Assembly: GCA_009926205.1 (NCBI GenBank)
Contig: RFPI01000008.1
Span: 1 to 40,885 of the forward strand
Direction of reading: 5' to 3'
DNA: 40,885 bases
Origin: Methylophilaceae bacterium
Lineage (GTDB): Bacteria; Pseudomonadota; Gammaproteobacteria; Burkholderiales; Methylophilaceae
Of this stretch, positions 30,386 through 40,885 are shown one piece after another. Numbering within the stretch: position 1 is the stretch's first letter; every line of letters starts with the position of its first letter. The notes beneath the pieces were generated by a model. The model had not been told where the DNA came from. It saw only the letters and a list, made by a program, of their open reading frames with translations, and did not search any database. A program made the translations under genes and the position numbers.

Positions 30386-32797
<2,412 letters not shown>

Positions 32798-32814: not shown

Positions 32815-33915
32815 TTAAATTCGCATTGGCATGACGACGTACTTATAGTCGCTATTTCCTGGGATAGTGACCAGACAGCTGCTATTTGCATCTGCAAAGG
32901 AAAACTCTACCTTATCATTCTGTATATTATTCAGCACATCGATCAAGTATGTCACATTAAAGCCAATATCCAAGCTGTCGCCTGAATAATTTAATTCCAA
33001 CTCTTCTTCTGCATCTTCTTGCTCGCTATTGGTACTGATCATCTTGATGTTGTTAGTGCTCAATACCATACGTATGCCTCGATACTTTTCATTGGACAGG
33101 ATAGATGCTCGTTGCATTGCCAATAAAATACCTAATCGATCGGTTTCAAACTTATTTTGATGTCCCTGTGGTATCACACGACTGTAATCTGGGAATTTAC
33201 CGTCAATAATTTTGGAAATAATCTTGATACTTGAAAACTCAAAACTGACTTGATTATTGGCAAACTCAATCGCCAACTCCTCATCAGAGTCATTCAGCAA
33301 TTTTATTAACTCAATGACCGTTTTTCTCGGTAGGATGACTTCTTGGTTTGTTGCTGCAGCATTTAAAGTTGTGGAAGTAAAGCTCAAGCGATGACCATCA
33401 GTTCCTACTAAATTCAATTTTCCATCTTTAATTTCGAGTAATAAACCATTCAAGTAATAGCGGATATCCTGCTGTGCCATAGAAAATTCAACTTGTCTCA
33501 AAAGCGCTTTAAATTTATTTTGCTCAATGACAAATTTACTGGCTGTGGTCTCACTTCTATTGATTAATGGAAAGTCTGCAGAAGGTAATGCCTGCAGATT
33601 AAATTTACTTTTACCTGTTTTGACAGTGACGCGGGTTTCGGTACCTGATAAGTCTAGTTCAGATCCCTCAGGTAAAGCGCGACAAATATCTAGCAGTTTT
33701 CTAGCAGAAACAGTAATTGAAAAATTATTCGCATTACTAGATTCAATTTGACTAGATATTTGAATCTCTAAGTCTGTCGCTGTTAGAACCAATGTATTGT
33801 TTTTGGCTTCTAACATAATGTTGGAAAGAATCGGTAAGGTGTGCTTACGTTCTACAATACCATTCACTTCTGTTAATGGTTTTAACAAGGTTTCTCGAGA
33901 GATTTTTATGTTCAT
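32815..33915 (-). CDS. dnaN: DNA polymerase III beta sliding clamp
   Basis: The beta clamp is a ring dimer that tethers DNA polymerase III to DNA. The 366-residue protein (E. coli: 366) consists of three repeated clamp folds and has the family start ISRETLLKPLTEVNGIVERK, the TVSARKLLDICRALPE segment and the C-terminal YVVMPMR, part of the hydrophobic pocket for client peptides. It is separated from dnaA by an AT-rich 203-bp gap carrying DnaA boxes and is followed by gyrB after 20 nt. Confidence 0.97.
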   Translation of the reverse strand: MNIKISRETLLKPLTEVNGIVERKHTLPILSNIMLEAKNNTLVLTATDLEIQISSQIESSNANNFSITVSARKLLDICRALPEGSELDLSGTETRVTVKTGKSKFNLQALPSADFPLINRSETTASKFVIEQNKFKALLRQVEFSMAQQDIRYYLNGLLLEIKDGKLNLVGTDGHRLSFTSTTLNAAATNQEVILPRKTVIELIKLLNDSDEELAIEFANNQVSFEFSSIKIISKIIDGKFPDYSRVIPQGHQNKFETDRLGILLAMQRASILSNEKYRGIRMVLSTNNIKMISTNSEQEDAEEELELNYSGDSLDIGFNVTYLIDVLNNIQNDKVEFSFADANSSCLVTIPGNSDYKYVVMPMRI

Positions 33916-34118: not shown

Positions 34119-35471
34119 TTAATCACGAATCACTTGCGTCAATATTGCTATATCTCTTGCTAGTACAGGATCTGTATTTTTCATGCCACCAATCTCATCA
34201 CAAGCATGCATGACAGTCGTATGATGACGGTTACCAAAAGCTTCACCTATCTCAGGAAAGCTAAAGTTAGTTAATTCTCGTGCCAACGCCATTGCCACCT
34301 GTCTGGGGCGAGCAAAGTTTCTTGTGCGCTTTTTACTATACATTTCTGCTACTTTTATCTTGTAGTAATCAGCCACCGTTTTTTGGATATTCTCGATTGT
34401 AATCTGTCTACTTTTGACCGCGATTAAATCCTTTAAGGCTTCTTTTGCAAGATTGATATCAATTTCACGTCCTGTGAAATTAGACATCGCAATAATTCTA
34501 TTCAATGCGCCCTCTAATTCACGCACATTAGATCGAATTTGCTTTGCTACAAAAAAGGCCACATCCTCACCAATTTTAACTTTTGCTTCTTCCGCCTTCT
34601 TTAATAAAATGGCGACCCGCATTTCTAATTCTGGCGGCTCAACCGCAACAGTCAAACCCCAACTGAATCTGGTTCTTAAACGCTCATCCATATCTGCAAT
34701 CTCTTTAGGATAAGTATCGCAGGTAATAATAATTTGTTTTTTACTTTCAATTAGGGAGTTAAAAACATAAAAGAATTCTTCTTGAGTTCTAGGTTTTTTA
34801 GCAAAAAATTGAATATCGTCTACCAATATCAAATCTAAAGAATGATACTTTTTCTTAAACTCATCAAAAGATTTATTACCATATGCCTTCACAACATCAG
34901 AAACATACCTCTCAGCATGAAGATATTTGATTTTTGCCTCACTGTTGTGACTTTTAACAAAGTTACCGATGGCTTGAATCAGATGAGTCTTTCCTAGGCC
35001 TACGCCACCATAAATGAATAAAGGGTTGTAAGATTCACCAGGCTTTTCAGCAATTTGAAGTGCCGCAGCGCGCGCCAACTCATTTGCGCGACCCGTCACA
35101 AAATTTTCAAACAGAAACGCAGGGTTAAGTCCGTCACTATTTGCAGATTTCGTATCGGTCTTTTTCTTAACCTCTTTTGGCTTTTTGACCTCTTGGGCCG
35201 TATTGACCCTTGGCTCCACCGCATCTATCTTTTTAGTGTCGCTGATAATAAATTCAATTTCACAAGGCTGCTTGAGATAATCCTCTGCTAACTGACTAAT
35301 TTGCTGAGAAAACTTATCTTTTACCCATTGCATGACAAAACGGTTTGGACAATACAAACGCACGTTGGCCTCTTGGATGTCGCAATCAAGCGGTTTAATC
35401 CATGTATTAAACTGCTGCTGAGAAAGCTCCTCCTGGAACCTATTCAGGCAATTTGACCAAAATTCATTCAT
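34119..35471 (-). CDS. dnaA: Chromosomal replication initiator protein DnaA
   Basis: DnaA binds oriC boxes, opens the duplex and helps load DnaB. The 450-residue protein shows domain I (about 1-80), a short lysine-rich linker (about 85-112), the AAA+ domain with Walker A GGVGLGKT (155-162) and Walker B LILVDDIQF (D218, D219), and domain IV with the DNA-binding GNRHHTTVMHA signature near 418-428. The ATG at 35471 has no clear Shine-Dalgarno. It is divergent from rpmH across 205 bp; a perfect DnaA box about 100 bp upstream suggests autoregulation. Confidence 0.98.
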   Translation of the reverse strand: MNEFWSNCLNRFQEELSQQQFNTWIKPLDCDIQEANVRLYCPNRFVMQWVKDKFSQQISQLAEDYLKQPCEIEFIISDTKKIDAVEPRVNTAQEVKKPKEVKKKTDTKSANSDGLNPAFLFENFVTGRANELARAAALQIAEKPGESYNPLFIYGGVGLGKTHLIQAIGNFVKSHNSEAKIKYLHAERYVSDVVKAYGNKSFDEFKKKYHSLDLILVDDIQFFAKKPRTQEEFFYVFNSLIESKKQIIITCDTYPKEIADMDERLRTRFSWGLTVAVEPPELEMRVAILLKKAEEAKVKIGEDVAFFVAKQIRSNVRELEGALNRIIAMSNFTGREIDINLAKEALKDLIAVKSRQITIENIQKTVADYYKIKVAEMYSKKRTRNFARPRQVAMALARELTNFSFPEIGEAFGNRHHTTVMHACDEIGGMKNTDPVLARDIAILTQVIRD

Positions 35472-35568
35472 AATGTGGCAATTAGTTGATTTTAAAAGAA
35501 ATAATTATATTTATGGAAGCGACGCTTACCCTGAAATCGAATAGCAATTTTAGCGTTTCCAGAGCACT

Positions 35569-35577
35569 TTATCCACA
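35569..35577 (+). promoter_or_regulatory. Perfect DnaA box in the dnaA-rpmH intergenic region
   Basis: TTATCCACA, the highest-affinity DnaA box form, lies about 100 bp upstream of dnaA and about 110 bp upstream of rpmH. The divergent 205-bp region is the strand-switch point of the window. The box could serve in autorepression of dnaA or as part of the origin. I found only one clear box here, against one perfect and four near-matches on the other side of dnaA. Confidence 0.75.
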
Positions 35578-35608
35578 GACTTATTTCTCTATCAAAGTCA
35601 GATAGTTA

Positions 35609-35638
35609 TTGACAAGTGCTGTAAATTTCTAGTCTAAT
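35609..35638 (+). promoter_or_regulatory. Promoter of the rpmH-rnpA operon
   Basis: A perfect -35 TTGACA (35609-35614) is followed by an 18-nt spacer and TCTAAT (35633-35638; five of six consensus). It ends 38 bp before the rpmH start codon. The same TTGACA lies just 31 bp from the DnaA box at 35569-35577, so DnaA binding could affect this promoter as well. Confidence 0.7.
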
Positions 35639-35676
35639 AGAGGGTTTTCAAGAGAACGAATTCGGAGTAATTCAGA

Positions 35677-35811
35677 ATGAAACGTACATATCAACCATCT
35701 AAAGTCCGTCGTGCAAGAACCCACGGTTTCTTAGTGCGCATGAAAACTCGTGGCGGTAAAGCAGTGATTGCTGCTCGTCGCGCAAAAGGTCGCGCTAGAT
35801 TGGCTGTTTAA
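35677..35811 (+). CDS. rpmH: 50S ribosomal protein L34
   Basis: The 44-residue, very basic protein begins [18 protein letters not shown] and ends RARLAV, the near-invariant L34 sequence. It is a large-subunit ribosomal protein. A GGAG Shine-Dalgarno lies 9 nt before the ATG and a good promoter is just upstream. It opens the universal rpmH-rnpA-yidD-yidC-mnmE set, which runs away from dnaA on the plus strand. Confidence 0.98.
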
Positions 35812-35843
35812 TTACAAGCCATTGCTAAAGTCGGGCAATTGAT

Positions 35844-36182
35844 TTGAGTCTTGCCTTTAAAAAGCAGCAAAAATTACTAAAAACGGATGATTTTTCATCC
35901 GTTTTTGATTTTAGAAGAGCGCTAACAGGAAAATACCTCACTATTTCTTACAAGCCCAATAGCATGCACCACGCGCGAATTGGAGTTGTAGTCGCCAAAA
36001 AATCCTTCCCCACAGCGGTTGAGCGTAATTTTATAAAGCGACGTATGCGAGAAATCTTCCGTTTGAATTGTCATCACTTCCAAGAACTAGATTTAGTAGT
36101 GAGGCCACGCCAGCAAATCCGTGGGGTAGGGTACAATGCGCTCTGTGCAGATTTTTTAGAGTTGGTGGCTAAGATACGATAA
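35844..36182 (+). CDS. rnpA: Ribonuclease P protein component
   Basis: RnpA is the protein cofactor of the RNase P ribozyme that matures tRNA 5' ends. The 112-residue basic protein has the RNR motif region RIGVVVAKKSFPTAVERNFIKRRMRE split across residues 45-70, the family signature. No ATG is available before the conserved LLKTDDFSSVF segment; the TTG at 35844 is the best start although its Shine-Dalgarno is weak. It follows rpmH after 32 bp and overlaps the yidD start by one base. Confidence 0.93.
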   Translation: MSLAFKKQQKLLKTDDFSSVFDFRRALTGKYLTISYKPNSMHHARIGVVVAKKSFPTAVERNFIKRRMREIFRLNCHHFQELDLVVRPRQQIRGVGYNALCADFLELVAKIR

Positions 36183-36391
36183 TGCGCTTTTTAGTTAAAA
36201 AACTAATACGTTTGTATCAAATATGTATTAGCCCCATGCTCGGACGTAACTGCAGGTTCCACCCAACTTGTTCCTCCTATTGCTATCAAGCTTATGAAAA
36301 ATATAATTTTTTTCATGCAACAGCGAAGAGCATTTGGAGAATTTTAAAATGTAACCCCTTGCATAAAGGTGGTTTTGATCCAATCGATTGA
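36182..36391 (+). CDS. yidD: Membrane protein insertion efficiency factor YidD
   Basis: The 69-residue protein has the YidD pattern: an N-terminal amphipathic helix, then SPMLGRNCRFHPTCSSYC with the conserved cysteines and histidine, and a C-terminal CNPLHKGGFDP. It is thought to assist insertion of membrane proteins with YidC. Its ATG shares an A with the rnpA stop codon, and yidC follows after 9 nt. Confidence 0.96.
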   Translation: MRFLVKKLIRLYQICISPMLGRNCRFHPTCSSYCYQAYEKYNFFHATAKSIWRILKCNPLHKGGFDPID

Positions 36392-36400
36392 TATAGGCTT

Positions 36401-38008
36401 ATGGATACTAAAAGATTTATTGTTTTTGTCGTTCTCTCATTCACAATCTTAATGTTTTGGGGCCAGTGGCAATCTTCCCGAGCACCTCAAGTTACTCAGG
36501 CTAAGACTGAAAGTTCTTCGTCGAACAAGCCCGCACAAGCCATTCCAACCAGCTTTAATTTGGTTAAAGATAAGCGCATTCATGTAAGCACAGACTTGAT
36601 GAGTGCCGAGATTGATTTAGCTGGCGGTGATTTGCGTTCTGTAGAATTGTTAAAACACAAGAGTGCAGAAAACATTCAAGATAATCTAGTTCTGTTGAGC
36701 GACTCAGATTCATCACGGGTTTATATTTCTCAGTCAGGTTTGATTGGAGAAGCCTTACCTAATCACAAAACAATATATCAAGCAGACAGCACTGAATATC
36801 AGTTGAATCCAGATCAAAATGAATTAAAGGTGGTGCTGACATATCAGAATGAAGTAGTGAAGGTTGCTAAAACCTACACATTTAAGCGAGGCGACTATGC
36901 CGTCAACGTTGATTATCAAGTCAGCAATATTTCTGATAAACCCTTAAATCCATGGGTTTATTTCCAAATTCTGCACGACAATCAGTCTGATCAGGGCGCG
37001 AAGATGATGCCTACCTTTACCGGTGGTGCCTATTACAACGCCGATGCTAATTACAAAAAGGTTTCCTTCAAAGATATGGCGAAAGCCGACCTCAATCTAA
37101 GCAGCAATGACGGTTGGGTGGGTTTGGTGCAACACTATTTTGTAAGTGCGTGGATTCCGCAACAGGTAACCAAGCAAGAGTTTTACACATCAAAAATTAG
37201 TGATGCTATTTATGCTATCGGGACTAAATATGCATTGGGAGACATTGCGCCAGGGGCTAGTAAACAGGCTTCCGCCAAATTTTACTCCGGCCCTCAGTTA
37301 CATGATGAGTTGGCTAAAACCGCGCCAGGCCTAGAGTATACAGTTGACTATGGCTGGTTGACCTTTATCGCGTCACCTTTATTTAAGTTGCTTTCACTGA
37401 TAAATGACTTTGCTGCTAACTGGGGTGTATCCATTATTATCTTGACCCTGATTATCAAGACATTGTTTTATCCTTTGTCGGCAGCCGGTTATCGCAATAT
37501 GGCGCAAATGCGTGAGTTAGCGCCTCGTCTGCAAAGCATGAAAGAAAAATATGGCGATGATAAATTAAAGATGCAGCAAGCCATGATGGAGCTTTATAAG
37601 ACCGAGAAGATTAATCCTTTTGGGGGTTGCTTGCCCATATTGGTACAAATTCCTGTCTTTATTTCTCTGTATTGGATGCTATTGGGTAGTGTGGAAATGC
37701 GTCATGCGCCCTTTATGCTGTGGATTCAAGATCTATCTGCACCGGACCCGTATTATGTGTTGCCCATACTGATGGCAATCAGTATGTTTGTTCAAACAAA
37801 GCTGAATCCTAAGCCTACAGATCCTATGCAGGCAAAAATGATGTTATTTATGCCACTTATATTCAGCGTGTTTTTCTTCTTCTTCCCAGCGGGCTTGGTG
37901 TTGTATTGGCTAGTTAACAACATCCTATCGATAGTACAACAAGCCCAAATTAATCGCAGTATTCATGCGATGGCCTTGGCAAAGAAAAAAGGAAATGTTA
38001 ACTCTTAA
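36401..38008 (+). CDS. yidC: Membrane protein insertase YidC
   Basis: YidC inserts and folds inner-membrane proteins, alone or with SecYEG. The 535-residue protein has an N-terminal uncleaved membrane anchor (about 6-22), a large periplasmic domain (about 45-325) typical of gram-negative YidC, and a C-terminal five-helix core that includes [17 protein letters not shown] and a late [18 protein letters not shown] helix. Its end overlaps the mnmE start by 14 nt. Confidence 0.97.
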
Positions 38009-39344
38009 GCCGGATAACGATACCATTGCCGCGATTGCAACGGCATCCGGCATCGCGAGTATAGGTGTTATTCGTATATCAGGATCCCAGGCTAAGCAAA
38101 TTGCGCAAGCCATATTGGGACAAACAATCAGCCCCCGAGTAGCTTACTACTTACCATTTTTAGATAGCGATCAAACGGTTATTGACCGTGGCATCGCTAT
38201 TTTTTTTGCAGGTCCCCACTCTTACACTGGGGAGGATGTCCTTGAGCTTCAGGCGCATGGCGGCAGCATTGTTCTTCAACTTCTTCTTCAGGCATGTTTA
38301 AAACAAGGCGCTAGACAAGCTGAGCCGGGGGAGTTCACCAAAAGAGCGTTTCTAAATGGAAAAATGGACTTAGCCCAGGCTGAAGCTGTCGTCGATATTT
38401 TGAACGCCTCTACGGTACAAGCTGCAAAAAGTGCCATGCGTTCACTTTCCGGAGAGTTTTCTAAATTAATCCATATCCTCTTAAATGAATTAACCGAACT
38501 TAGAGTATACGTAGAGGCTTGCATTGATTTTCCTGAGGAGGACATAGACTTTATTAGTGCCGGCCGTATTCAAGAGCGTATTCATAATATTCAGACAGAG
38601 CTTGCAAAAATATTTAAACAATCGCAACAAGGGGTTTTACTCAAAGACGGTTTAGTGGTGGTTTTAATTGGCCAACCCAATGTTGGCAAATCCAGTCTCA
38701 TTAATCAGCTGTCAGGAGATGAGGTGGCAATCGTTACCCCAGTTGCTGGAACTACGCGAGATACGATTTCAACTGACATCCAAATTCAAGGCGTTCCTTT
38801 TACTCTTGTCGATACTGCTGGACTAAGAGAGACAAATGATGAGATTGAAAAAATCGGTATTGCAAAAACATGGAAAACGATAGAAAGAGCCAATATTGCA
38901 TTATTTTTAGTGGATGCGAATCATGACATTGGCGAAAAAGAAAAATCGATTTTAGATAGGTTGCCGCAAGAAGTTAAAAAGATTTGGGTGCACAATAAAA
39001 TCGACTTGACCGAGCGTTTGGCAGAAATTCAATATCAAAGTGACCCGCATGTTTATATTTCTGCAAAACATGGCGAAGGTGTGGATCTTCTGAAAAAAGT
39101 TTTATTAGAAAGCGTGGGCATGCAGGATTTGGGTGAAAATGCATTTACTGCCCGGACACGTCATTTAAAAACAATTTCGCTGGTGGCGGACTATCTCAAC
39201 TTGTCTCTTGCTAACCTAGCGCAGGCAGAGCTGCTGGCTGAGAATTTGAGACTGGCACAACAAGAACTTTCGAGCATTACTGGTGAATTTACTGCGGACG
39301 ACCTGTTAGGCGAGATATTTGGTTCGTTTTGTATTGGTAAGTGA
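37995..39344 (+). CDS. mnmE: tRNA uridine-5-carboxymethylaminomethyl modification GTPase MnmE
   Basis: MnmE acts with MnmG to modify the wobble uridine of several tRNAs. The 449-residue protein has the N-terminal folate-binding domain starting [19 protein letters not shown], a GTPase domain with G1 GQPNVGKS (226-233), GTTRDT (252-257), DTAG (273-276) and NKID, and the C-terminal CIGK with its catalytic cysteine. The frame is open back to 37965 inside yidC, but the ATG at 37995 after AAAGGA gives the family start. Its partner mnmG begins at 40590, separated by two cytochrome genes on the opposite strand. Confidence 0.96.
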
Positions 39345-39977
39345 TTATCTTCTAAACAATTTCATCAGCAATCTTTTCAAAAAACCTTCAATCGCAAAAA
39401 TTCTTTTTGTTTCACGTGAAACATCGTTTCGATTGGCAGGTTCAATGCTATTCTGGATGTCATGTTTTTTGCCAGTAATCATGGCTAAAATCAAATTTTC
39501 TCTATGCAAAAGAGATTCAATCAATACCCCAGAGATGTGCGATGCAATCAGAATCAGCCAAGACCAAGCGCTATAGAAATGAAGGTCTTGCAGGTATGCA
39601 GGATTATTCCATAACCAGCCATCGTTATAGACCAGAAAGCCACTGCTTACAGTCATAATGCCGGCTCCCAGCATAAGATAAATAACTAATGATCCCGCAG
39701 GATTGTGCCCCACAAAAGGCTTAGCCTTTCCCCTAAAAATTTTAAAGGTATATCGAAGCGCTCTTTCGGGGTCTGGAGGAAAGCTCTGGAATTTGGCATA
39801 ACCAGTATTTAGGAAGCCCCAAATAATACGAATAAAAATCACCGTGGCAGCGACATAACCCGCATTCACATGGGTTAGTCGTTGCCACTCGGATTCATGT
39901 GTCAGAAATGCGACAGCGAATGAGACAACTAAAGTCCAATGACAAATCCTGACTATAGGGTCCCATACATATCGCAT
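39345..39977 (-). CDS. Cytochrome b561-family membrane protein
   Basis: The 210-residue protein opens VWDPIVRICHW, the typical start of bacterial di-heme cytochrome b561/hydrogenase cytochrome b subunits, and has about four transmembrane helices (roughly 11-27, 38-56, 94-115 and 133-155). Histidines H13, H36, H133 and H147 are candidate heme ligands. A polar C-terminal tail (about 165-210) contains VSRET (186-190), which is encoded by a perfect parS site. It follows the cytochrome c gene after 6 nt and probably passes quinol-derived electrons to it. Its stop codon abuts the mnmE stop with no bases between them. Confidence 0.88.
   Translation of the reverse strand: MRYVWDPIVRICHWTLVVSFAVAFLTHESEWQRLTHVNAGYVAATVIFIRIIWGFLNTGYAKFQSFPPDPERALRYTFKIFRGKAKPFVGHNPAGSLVIYLMLGAGIMTVSSGFLVYNDGWLWNNPAYLQDLHFYSAWSWLILIASHISGVLIESLLHRENLILAMITGKKHDIQNSIEPANRNDVSRETKRIFAIEGFLKRLLMKLFRR
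39408..39423. other. parS: parS centromere site inside the cytochrome b561 gene
   Basis: TGTTTCACGTGAAACA is a perfect 16-bp match to the chromosomal parS consensus bound by ParB (Spo0J) and is fully palindromic. It lies within the coding region of the b561 gene, where it is read as VSRET. It sits about 4-5 kb from the dnaA region, as expected for an origin-proximal centromere. parA and parB are not in the window; they commonly follow mnmG and rsmG. Confidence 0.93.
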
Positions 39978-39983
39978 ATAAAA

Positions 39984-40406
39984 CTACTTAACGCTAATCA
40001 AATAAGTAACGAAGTTTGCTTTCTCTTTAGCAGAGCAATCGCGGCCTGTAATGTCATTACAGTGCTTAGTAAAGTTCTTTTCAACTTTATCAATATCAGC
40101 AAAACGCTTTTCGTTAATGGCTGGTGCTAGAGGACGAATAGGTTTGCCCGTCACGATATGCTTGCCTTGGTCGGCTGGGTTTGCAGTATGGCAAGATGCG
40201 CAAGCCGTTGGTTTGCCTTTAATCAATAGCTCACGATTGAAAAAAGCTTTGCCTTCTTCCGCGGATGGGCCTGCAAAGGCTGGATCGATGTTTTTAGCGA
40301 TCACTGCATATTTGTCAGCAAATTTCTGGGCAGAGGCAACGTCGGCAGTTGCATTCAAGCTTGCCAAAGCAAATAGACTCAATAAAGTTAAACTGATTTT
40401 TTTCAT
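39984..40406 (-). CDS. Periplasmic monoheme cytochrome c'' (SHP/DUF1924 family)
   Basis: A signal peptide (cleavage probably at NATA-D, residue 21/22) precedes a mature protein of about 119 residues. The heme site is CASCH (C69, C72, H73). A later KHC segment has H115, and C116 and C124 flank NDITGRD. This matches, as I recall it, cytochrome c'' of Methylophilus methylotrophus, where a second histidine is the sixth heme ligand lost on reduction and a neighbouring disulfide is present. The related SHP of Rhodobacter binds oxygen and NO through an asparagine-ligated heme. AGGAG lies 6 nt before the ATG. The b561 gene follows directly. Confidence 0.9.
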   Translation of the reverse strand: MKKISLTLLSLFALASLNATADVASAQKFADKYAVIAKNIDPAFAGPSAEEGKAFFNRELLIKGKPTACASCHTANPADQGKHIVTGKPIRPLAPAINEKRFADIDKVEKNFTKHCNDITGRDCSAKEKANFVTYLISVK

Positions 40407-40513: not shown

Positions 40514-40529
40514 GGTTTCACGTGAAACA
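40514..40529. other. parS: Second parS site, between the cytochrome c'' gene and mnmG
   Basis: GGTTTCACGTGAAACA matches the parS consensus at 15 of 16 positions; the 14-bp palindromic core GTTTCACGTGAAAC is intact. It is intergenic, 1.1 kb from the site at 39408-39423. Two sites this close together near an origin are typical of a ParB loading zone. Confidence 0.88.
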
Positions 40530-40589: not shown

Positions 40590-40885
40590 ATGAATTTCGA
40601 AGAAAAATTTGATGTCATTGTTGTTGGTGGAGGTCACGCTGGGACAGAGGCTGCCTTGGCGGCCGCGCGTATGGGGCAAAAAACCCTATTATTGACGCAC
40701 AACATTGAAACATTGGGTCAAATGTCTTGTAACCCCTCTATCGGAGGTATAGGTAAAGGGCATTTGGTCAGAGAGGTGGATGCCCTAGGCGGAGCCATGG
40801 CGATTGCGACCGATGAGGGTGGAATTCAATTCCGTACGCTTAACGCAAGCAAAGGACCAGCGGTACGTGCAACGCGCGCACAAGC
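40590..40885 (+). CDS. mnmG: tRNA uridine-5-carboxymethylaminomethyl modification enzyme MnmG (5' part only)
   Basis: MnmG is the FAD-dependent partner of MnmE in wobble-uridine modification. The first 98 codons are present and the gene runs off the right edge. The start contains the FAD-binding [21 protein letters not shown] region (split by a conserved GxGxxG pattern), followed by [24 protein letters not shown], which is nearly invariant in the family. The ATG follows a weak GGGT. In most related genomes rsmG, parA and parB come next. Confidence 0.96.

Follow-up and report, generated by a model that had tools for sequence, protein, structure and literature searches.

The window analysed here is a 40,885-nucleotide stretch of a Methylophilaceae bacterium genome (assembly GCA_009926205.1, contig RFPI01000008.1) that carries genes on both sides of a presumed replication origin. 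On one side lie, in the order gyrB–dnaN–dnaA, gyrB (30386-32794), dnaN (32815-33915) and dnaA (34119-35471, reverse strand; identified by Pfam), and on the other side lie yidC (36401-38008, forward strand; Pfam), mnmE (37965-39344, forward strand), a cytochrome b561 family gene (39345-39977, reverse strand), a small gene with a DUF1924 domain (PF09086) upstream of b561 (39984-40406, reverse strand; Pfam) and the 5' end of mnmG (40590-40885, forward strand), inside which the contig ends. The product of the DUF1924 gene is probably a c-type cytochrome, a reading that goes beyond the Pfam match. The b561 and mnmE genes are convergent and their stop codons abut, with 0 bp between them. The presumed origin is placed in the dnaA–yidC interval (35472-36400): the cumulative GC skew reaches its minimum within the window around this interval, which contains one exact DnaA box (35569-35577); the window as a whole holds three exact DnaA boxes, no more than expected by chance.

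The b561 gene encodes a protein of 210 amino acids, of which residues 4-169, covering the membrane domain, match PF01292 (5.5e-23). Beyond this domain, at 39408-39423, a motif scan of the window finds an exact copy of TGTTTCACGTGAAACA, a perfect 16-bp palindrome which we take to be the parS consensus of ParABS systems. The original prediction had placed a parS here, in frame within b561 and encoding VSRET in a polar C-terminal tail. The frame and the peptide are as predicted: the 14-mer core begins on codon 186 in frame 0 and reads GTT TCA CGT GAA ACA, giving VSRET at codons 186-190, with 63 nt of b561, stop codon included, lying 3' of the 16-mer. VSRET does lie in the tail, but the tail is not simply polar, as the residues that follow it (KRIFAIEGFLKRLLMKLFRR) mix basic and hydrophobic side chains. 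An AlphaFold2 model of b561 (14 sequences; mean pLDDT 69.7) places a low-confidence helix at residues 188-209, within a region that scores 52-60 in 10-residue blocks from residue 171 on.

A second parS, GGTTTCACGTGAAACA, lies in the intergenic region 60 bp upstream of mnmG (40514-40529) and differs from the first by a single mismatch at an outer base. Allowing up to three mismatches, a parS scan returns these two matches in the window, against a mean of 0.21 in shuffled sequences; since 4 of 100 shuffles reached at least two matches, weight is to be placed on the exact match rather than on the number of matches. In the entire assembly (1.5 Mb in 104 contigs, 96% complete) the 14-mer core with at most one mismatch is found at these two positions and nowhere else, both of them no more than about 5 kb from the dnaA–yidC interval that we take as the origin, and a reversed-pattern control gives no match. 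The gene neighbourhood and the skew minimum together place the b561 site 3-4 kb from the presumed origin. Across the family, GTTYCACGTGRAAC is present in 175 of 187 genomes, compared with 5 of 187 for a control pattern. The window's genome thus has two parS copies; among ten genomes of the genus g17 (genera are denoted here by g numbers), seven have three copies, two have two and one has none. The third copy of one of these g17 genomes (G104) is located close to the beginning of the only contig.

The genome also encodes the expected partner protein. A single ParB_N match was found, in a protein with ParB_N, HTH_ParB and ParB_C domains, and its gene is located on a contig (C33) that also matches the rest of mnmG, so that parB would lie about 4.5 kb from the b561 site if the two contigs abut within mnmG. 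The genes between mnmG and parB, rsmG and parA, were named from their position and sequence, with ParA recognised by eye at one locus (L033). In an alignment to Caulobacter ParB (6t1f), R173 and G201 are matched by Arg and Gly in the protein. These two residues are described as conserved in all ParB and as telling ParB apart from Noc (PMC7383237), which points to specificity of the parS type and not of the Noc type. At two contact residues described as conserved between ParB and Noc, Q162 and K171 (PMC7383237), the protein has His and Arg, respectively, which makes us slightly less confident in the overall reading of the site. The exact match, the location beside the origin, the ParB encoded in the same genome and the conservation discussed below all agree, and by every sequence-level test the identification of the window site as parS is supported.

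To what extent is the site kept as DNA rather than as peptide? A codon alignment was made of nine b561 orthologues, that is the window gene and the eight full-length members found in g17, with which it shares 60-65% protein identity. All five codon columns of the site use a single codon across the nine sequences, compared with none of the 91 other degenerate columns in which the residue is invariant. Expressed as pairs of codons for the same residue, 180 of 180 agree within the site and 2363 of 5362 (44%) elsewhere in b561, and the only invariant run of at least 8 nt in the gene across the nine orthologues is GTTTCACGTGAAACA. When the comparison is confined to g17, the contrast narrows on one measure, as 5 of 111 other columns are then single-codon. 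Adding the g18 sequence (ten in total) leaves the 14-bp core invariant and changes the outermost base of the site (ACG for ACA; 216 of 225 site pairs agree), and the opposite outer base of the 16-mer is variable in two g17 members. Free synonymous drift within the 16 bp was therefore looked for and not found, variation being confined to the outermost bases, and the suggestion that the site is conserved at the nucleotide level beyond what VSRET requires is borne out. Within g17, pS is 0 in the site, compared with 0.75 in the core of the gene, 0.93 in the linker and 0.75 in the tail. The tail past the site behaves as protein, with pN/pS of 0.33-0.37 beyond the site versus 0.12-0.15 in the core. 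The codons of the site are mostly not the dominant ones in a set of 16 window genes (TCA is 14% of Ser codons, ACA 24% of Thr, GTT 26% of Val and CGT 29% of Arg, with GAA at 56% of Glu). Codon invariance in the site, set against synonymous change elsewhere, indicates that the constraint acts on the DNA, and the alignment thus argues that what selection keeps is the DNA site and not the peptide.

The same conclusion is reached by following the site through the family. Matches to b561 were found in 82 of the 187 genomes searched and the surroundings of the gene were inspected in 48 of the 82. Three loci with b561 and neither mnmG nor parS in the stretch (L089, L091 and L092) were left out of the resulting locus table, which contains 77 loci, 45 with b561 (the window included) and 32 without. 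In seven rows (L079, L080, L082, L088 and L180 to L182) the table misplaces the mnmE stop by 0.7 to 1.4 kb; the mnmE ends of g2 rows were taken from a separate reading, and L180 to L182 were kept out of the counts. The site lies in frame in b561 as VSRET in 10 of the 45 loci (the window, eight g17 loci and g18) and in another b561 frame, as FHVKH, in one (g3; L054, genome G032). In 15 loci belonging to three genera (g19, g20 and g24) b561 ends at a stop 1-50 nt short of the site, and in 16 (g15, L055 to L070) the site is within mnmE. Fourteen of these 16 also have a site in mnmG, with VSRET written in both proteins. One locus ends inside b561 at a contig end (L042), and in two (L090 and L093) neither mnmE nor the vicinity of b561 holds a site, L093 having one upstream of mnmG. 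Finally, ten g2 loci (L074 to L082 and L088) have neither b561 nor the cytochrome gene; between mnmE and mnmG they carry two parS whose starts are separated by 27-44 bp, the first of them directly at the end of mnmE.

Among the genera sampled, VSRET is found at the corresponding place in MnmE in g15 only and in MnmG in g7, g15 and g20 only, and it is in these genera that the genes concerned contain parS. In the other sampled genera the MnmE and MnmG columns hold diverse residues, with some near relatives sharing V or VS. One g15 row shows VTSRT in place of VSRET at the MnmE columns, presumably owing to an alignment gap, the site being in frame in 16 of 16. In a g20 genome (G169; L071, oriented position 1685), MnmE has VSREK over TGTTTCACGTGAAAAG, a two-mismatch parS remnant at a distance from the mnmE end equal to that of the g15 site; this looks like a decayed parS that has left its peptide behind. 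The occurrence of VSRET in three unrelated proteins, in each case where parS is, and of the same DNA in spacers, in another frame and in other genes indicates that it is the DNA that dictates the peptide. The original prediction had left undecided whether the site constrains the tail or the tail accommodates the site, and these relatives answer in favour of the former.

How do other explanations fare against these data? Selection for VSRET as a functional tail motif, with the palindrome as a by-product, would account for the invariance of the peptide in the 10 in-frame b561 proteins and could draw on the purifying selection, albeit limited, seen in the tail beyond it. However, the codons of the site are invariant despite 1152 possible spellings of VSRET, when no other invariant residue of b561 keeps a single codon across the nine orthologues; g3 writes FHVKH with the same DNA; and in 15 loci the DNA is kept just downstream of the b561 stop where there is no peptide to select. 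Codon invariance and the presence of the same DNA in other contexts lead us to reject peptide-level selection, which we regard as highly improbable. Gene conversion or transfer, with recent sharing of the tail in place of constraint, would likewise yield identical codons, but the coding stretches flanking the site are near synonymous saturation within g17, as the linker and tail values show, and this contradicts recent conversion unless the converted tract was no longer than the site itself; we consider it extremely improbable. As for a chance palindrome, 0.21 near-matches with up to three mismatches are expected by chance in 40 kb. Against this stand the restriction of core matches to two places in 1.5 Mb, each next to origin genes, with none for the control, the presence of the core in 175 of 187 family genomes and the nucleotide conservation in the b561 orthologues; the codon test on nine orthologues contradicts chance, whose probability we put as vanishingly small.

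A more serious alternative accepts the site as parS and reverses the direction of events, the in-frame state being ancestral and the other genera having gained an early b561 stop. In support of this, g18 is also in frame, the grouping of the window with g17 and g18 is not rejected on b561 plus the cytochrome (p-AU 0.80), and the tree has no firm root. In the b561 plus cytochrome tree (44 rows, b561 tail excluded), the window groups with g17 with support of 99 and lies next to G098 (86). The MnmE plus MnmG tree (61 rows; 16 of the 77 left out, mostly near-duplicates and one-gene rows) instead joins the window, on a long branch, to the streamlined genera g2 and g16 (support 87) and not to g17; holding the window and g17 together on these proteins is not rejected and gives a higher score (p-AU 0.905). 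This tree has unsettled deep nodes and long branches, and in it the outgroup does not form one side of any branch. Against an ancestral in-frame state, a site beside the 3' end of mnmE, distinct from that near mnmG, lies between genes or reaches just into the end of mnmE in g19, g20 and g24 loci with b561, and likewise in sampled loci of g2, g5, g6, g13 and g16 that lack b561 there. Intergenic ancestry is the simpler reading of such sites across these genera. The single mnmE–mnmG site of g4, g11, g12 and g21 is uninformative on direction. Given the uncertain deeper order and rooting, the direction from spacer to coding sequence rests on parsimony, and we consider the reverse unlikely.

The spacer between b561 and mnmE is compatible with such a direction. 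It measures 0 bp in the window, 1-4 bp in g17, 5 bp in g18, 10 bp in g3, 9-18 bp in 15 of 16 g15 loci, 36-69 bp in five of six g24 loci and 515-1396 bp in seven of the eight g19 and g20 loci in which both genes were read. The shortest spacers are too small for a 16-bp site, and there the site is found inside an open frame; the exceptions are L070, with a spacer of 485 bp yet with its site in mnmE, and L093 (17 bp) and L090 (37 bp), with no site there. All four g20 loci with b561 have a YegP-like gene immediately beyond the site, on the b561 side strand, and four g19 loci and one g24 locus carry such a gene as well. In the single g18 genome (G107; L043, and L020 at 1501-2505), one frame of 335 amino acids runs from b561 via VSRET into a YegP-like sequence, through parS, as if the frame had been read through the centromere to fuse two genes. 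The 335-residue protein matches the g20 YegP-like protein at 2e-13 (29% over 107 residues; two-sequence blastp), and Pfam finds no second domain in it. It is possible that the long frame reflects a sequencing frameshift, or that its second part is translated from an internal start.

Taken together, these observations give us high confidence that the window site is a ParABS centromere site of the ordinary kind, which probably resided in the b561–mnmE spacer before b561 came to overprint it, when that spacer contracted to 0-5 bp. In this sequence of events parS would first have lain in the spacer between the convergent genes. In the lineage comprising the window, g17 and possibly g18, the spacer would then have shrunk, with shrinkage the presumed cause, and the b561 frame, stop-free through the site, would have run on to add VSRET and, in the window and g17, about 20 further codons. 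Placement inside b561 is best explained as secondary to the role of the site as parS. Published work on Methylophilaceae streamlining describes shorter intergenic spacers with smaller genomes, including a 1.75-Mb intermediate (PMC6794327), and loss of the b561–mnmE spacer fits this trend.

By analogy with ParABS systems elsewhere, the palindrome would be the place where ParB binds, loads as a CTP-dependent clamp and from there spreads, allowing ParA and SMC to act on the origin region; that ParB would also cover mnmE and the cytochrome genes, as the original prediction foresaw, is plausible on the same grounds. In P. aeruginosa, native ParB is reported to change expression next to the intergenic parS3 and parS4 and not next to the intragenic parS1 and parS2 (PMC5521831), and a strong local effect at the b561 site is thus not the default expectation. 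Of the two sites, we infer that the second, which precedes mnmG, is more likely to have a regulatory role. Many relatives have a site 35-93 bp upstream of mnmG, with distances of 122-160 bp in g24 and two g19 loci, 136 bp in L193 and 343 bp in L080; in the locus table no site is present in this spacer in g15, g18, L050, L053 or L071. Its retention suggests a possible ParB-controlled promoter of the mnmG–rsmG–parAB cluster. A putative function for the overprint itself, in which transcription of b561 coupled to its translation and membrane insertion would bring the centromere to the inner membrane, so that the gene helps to position the origin, strikes us as a long shot.

The family provides a clear natural example of protein sequence being dictated by a DNA element, with one centromere site passing through a spacer, two b561 reading frames, what looks like a gene fusion and three host proteins. 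It also offers a simple caution for annotation, namely that VSRET, when invariant in the vicinity of an origin, can be parS in disguise and not a protein motif.

Sites of this type within genes have precedents. Bacillus subtilis has a parS inside spo0J, and thus, like the window site, in coding sequence near the origin; there, however, the host is the parB gene itself. The parS sites of P. aeruginosa belong to the same class of palindrome as that of the window. In strain PAO1, parS4 is described as intergenic and the nine others as most likely lying within coding sequences, and point mutations were introduced into the intragenic sites that left the coding sequence unaltered (PMC4368675). A literature search for codon-level conservation of parS found no paper on it among the matches listed, judged by title and the start of the abstract, and the available part of the streamlining study differs from the present work in making no mention of parS (PMC6794327). 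The P. aeruginosa sites resemble the one described here in their origin-region location inside genes (PMC4368675), and differ in that here the host is the tail of a cytochrome b561 and the site can be traced through a spacer, two coding frames and other genes. Intragenic parS were therefore already known (PMC4368675), and what is added here is a single site seen in all of these settings within one family.
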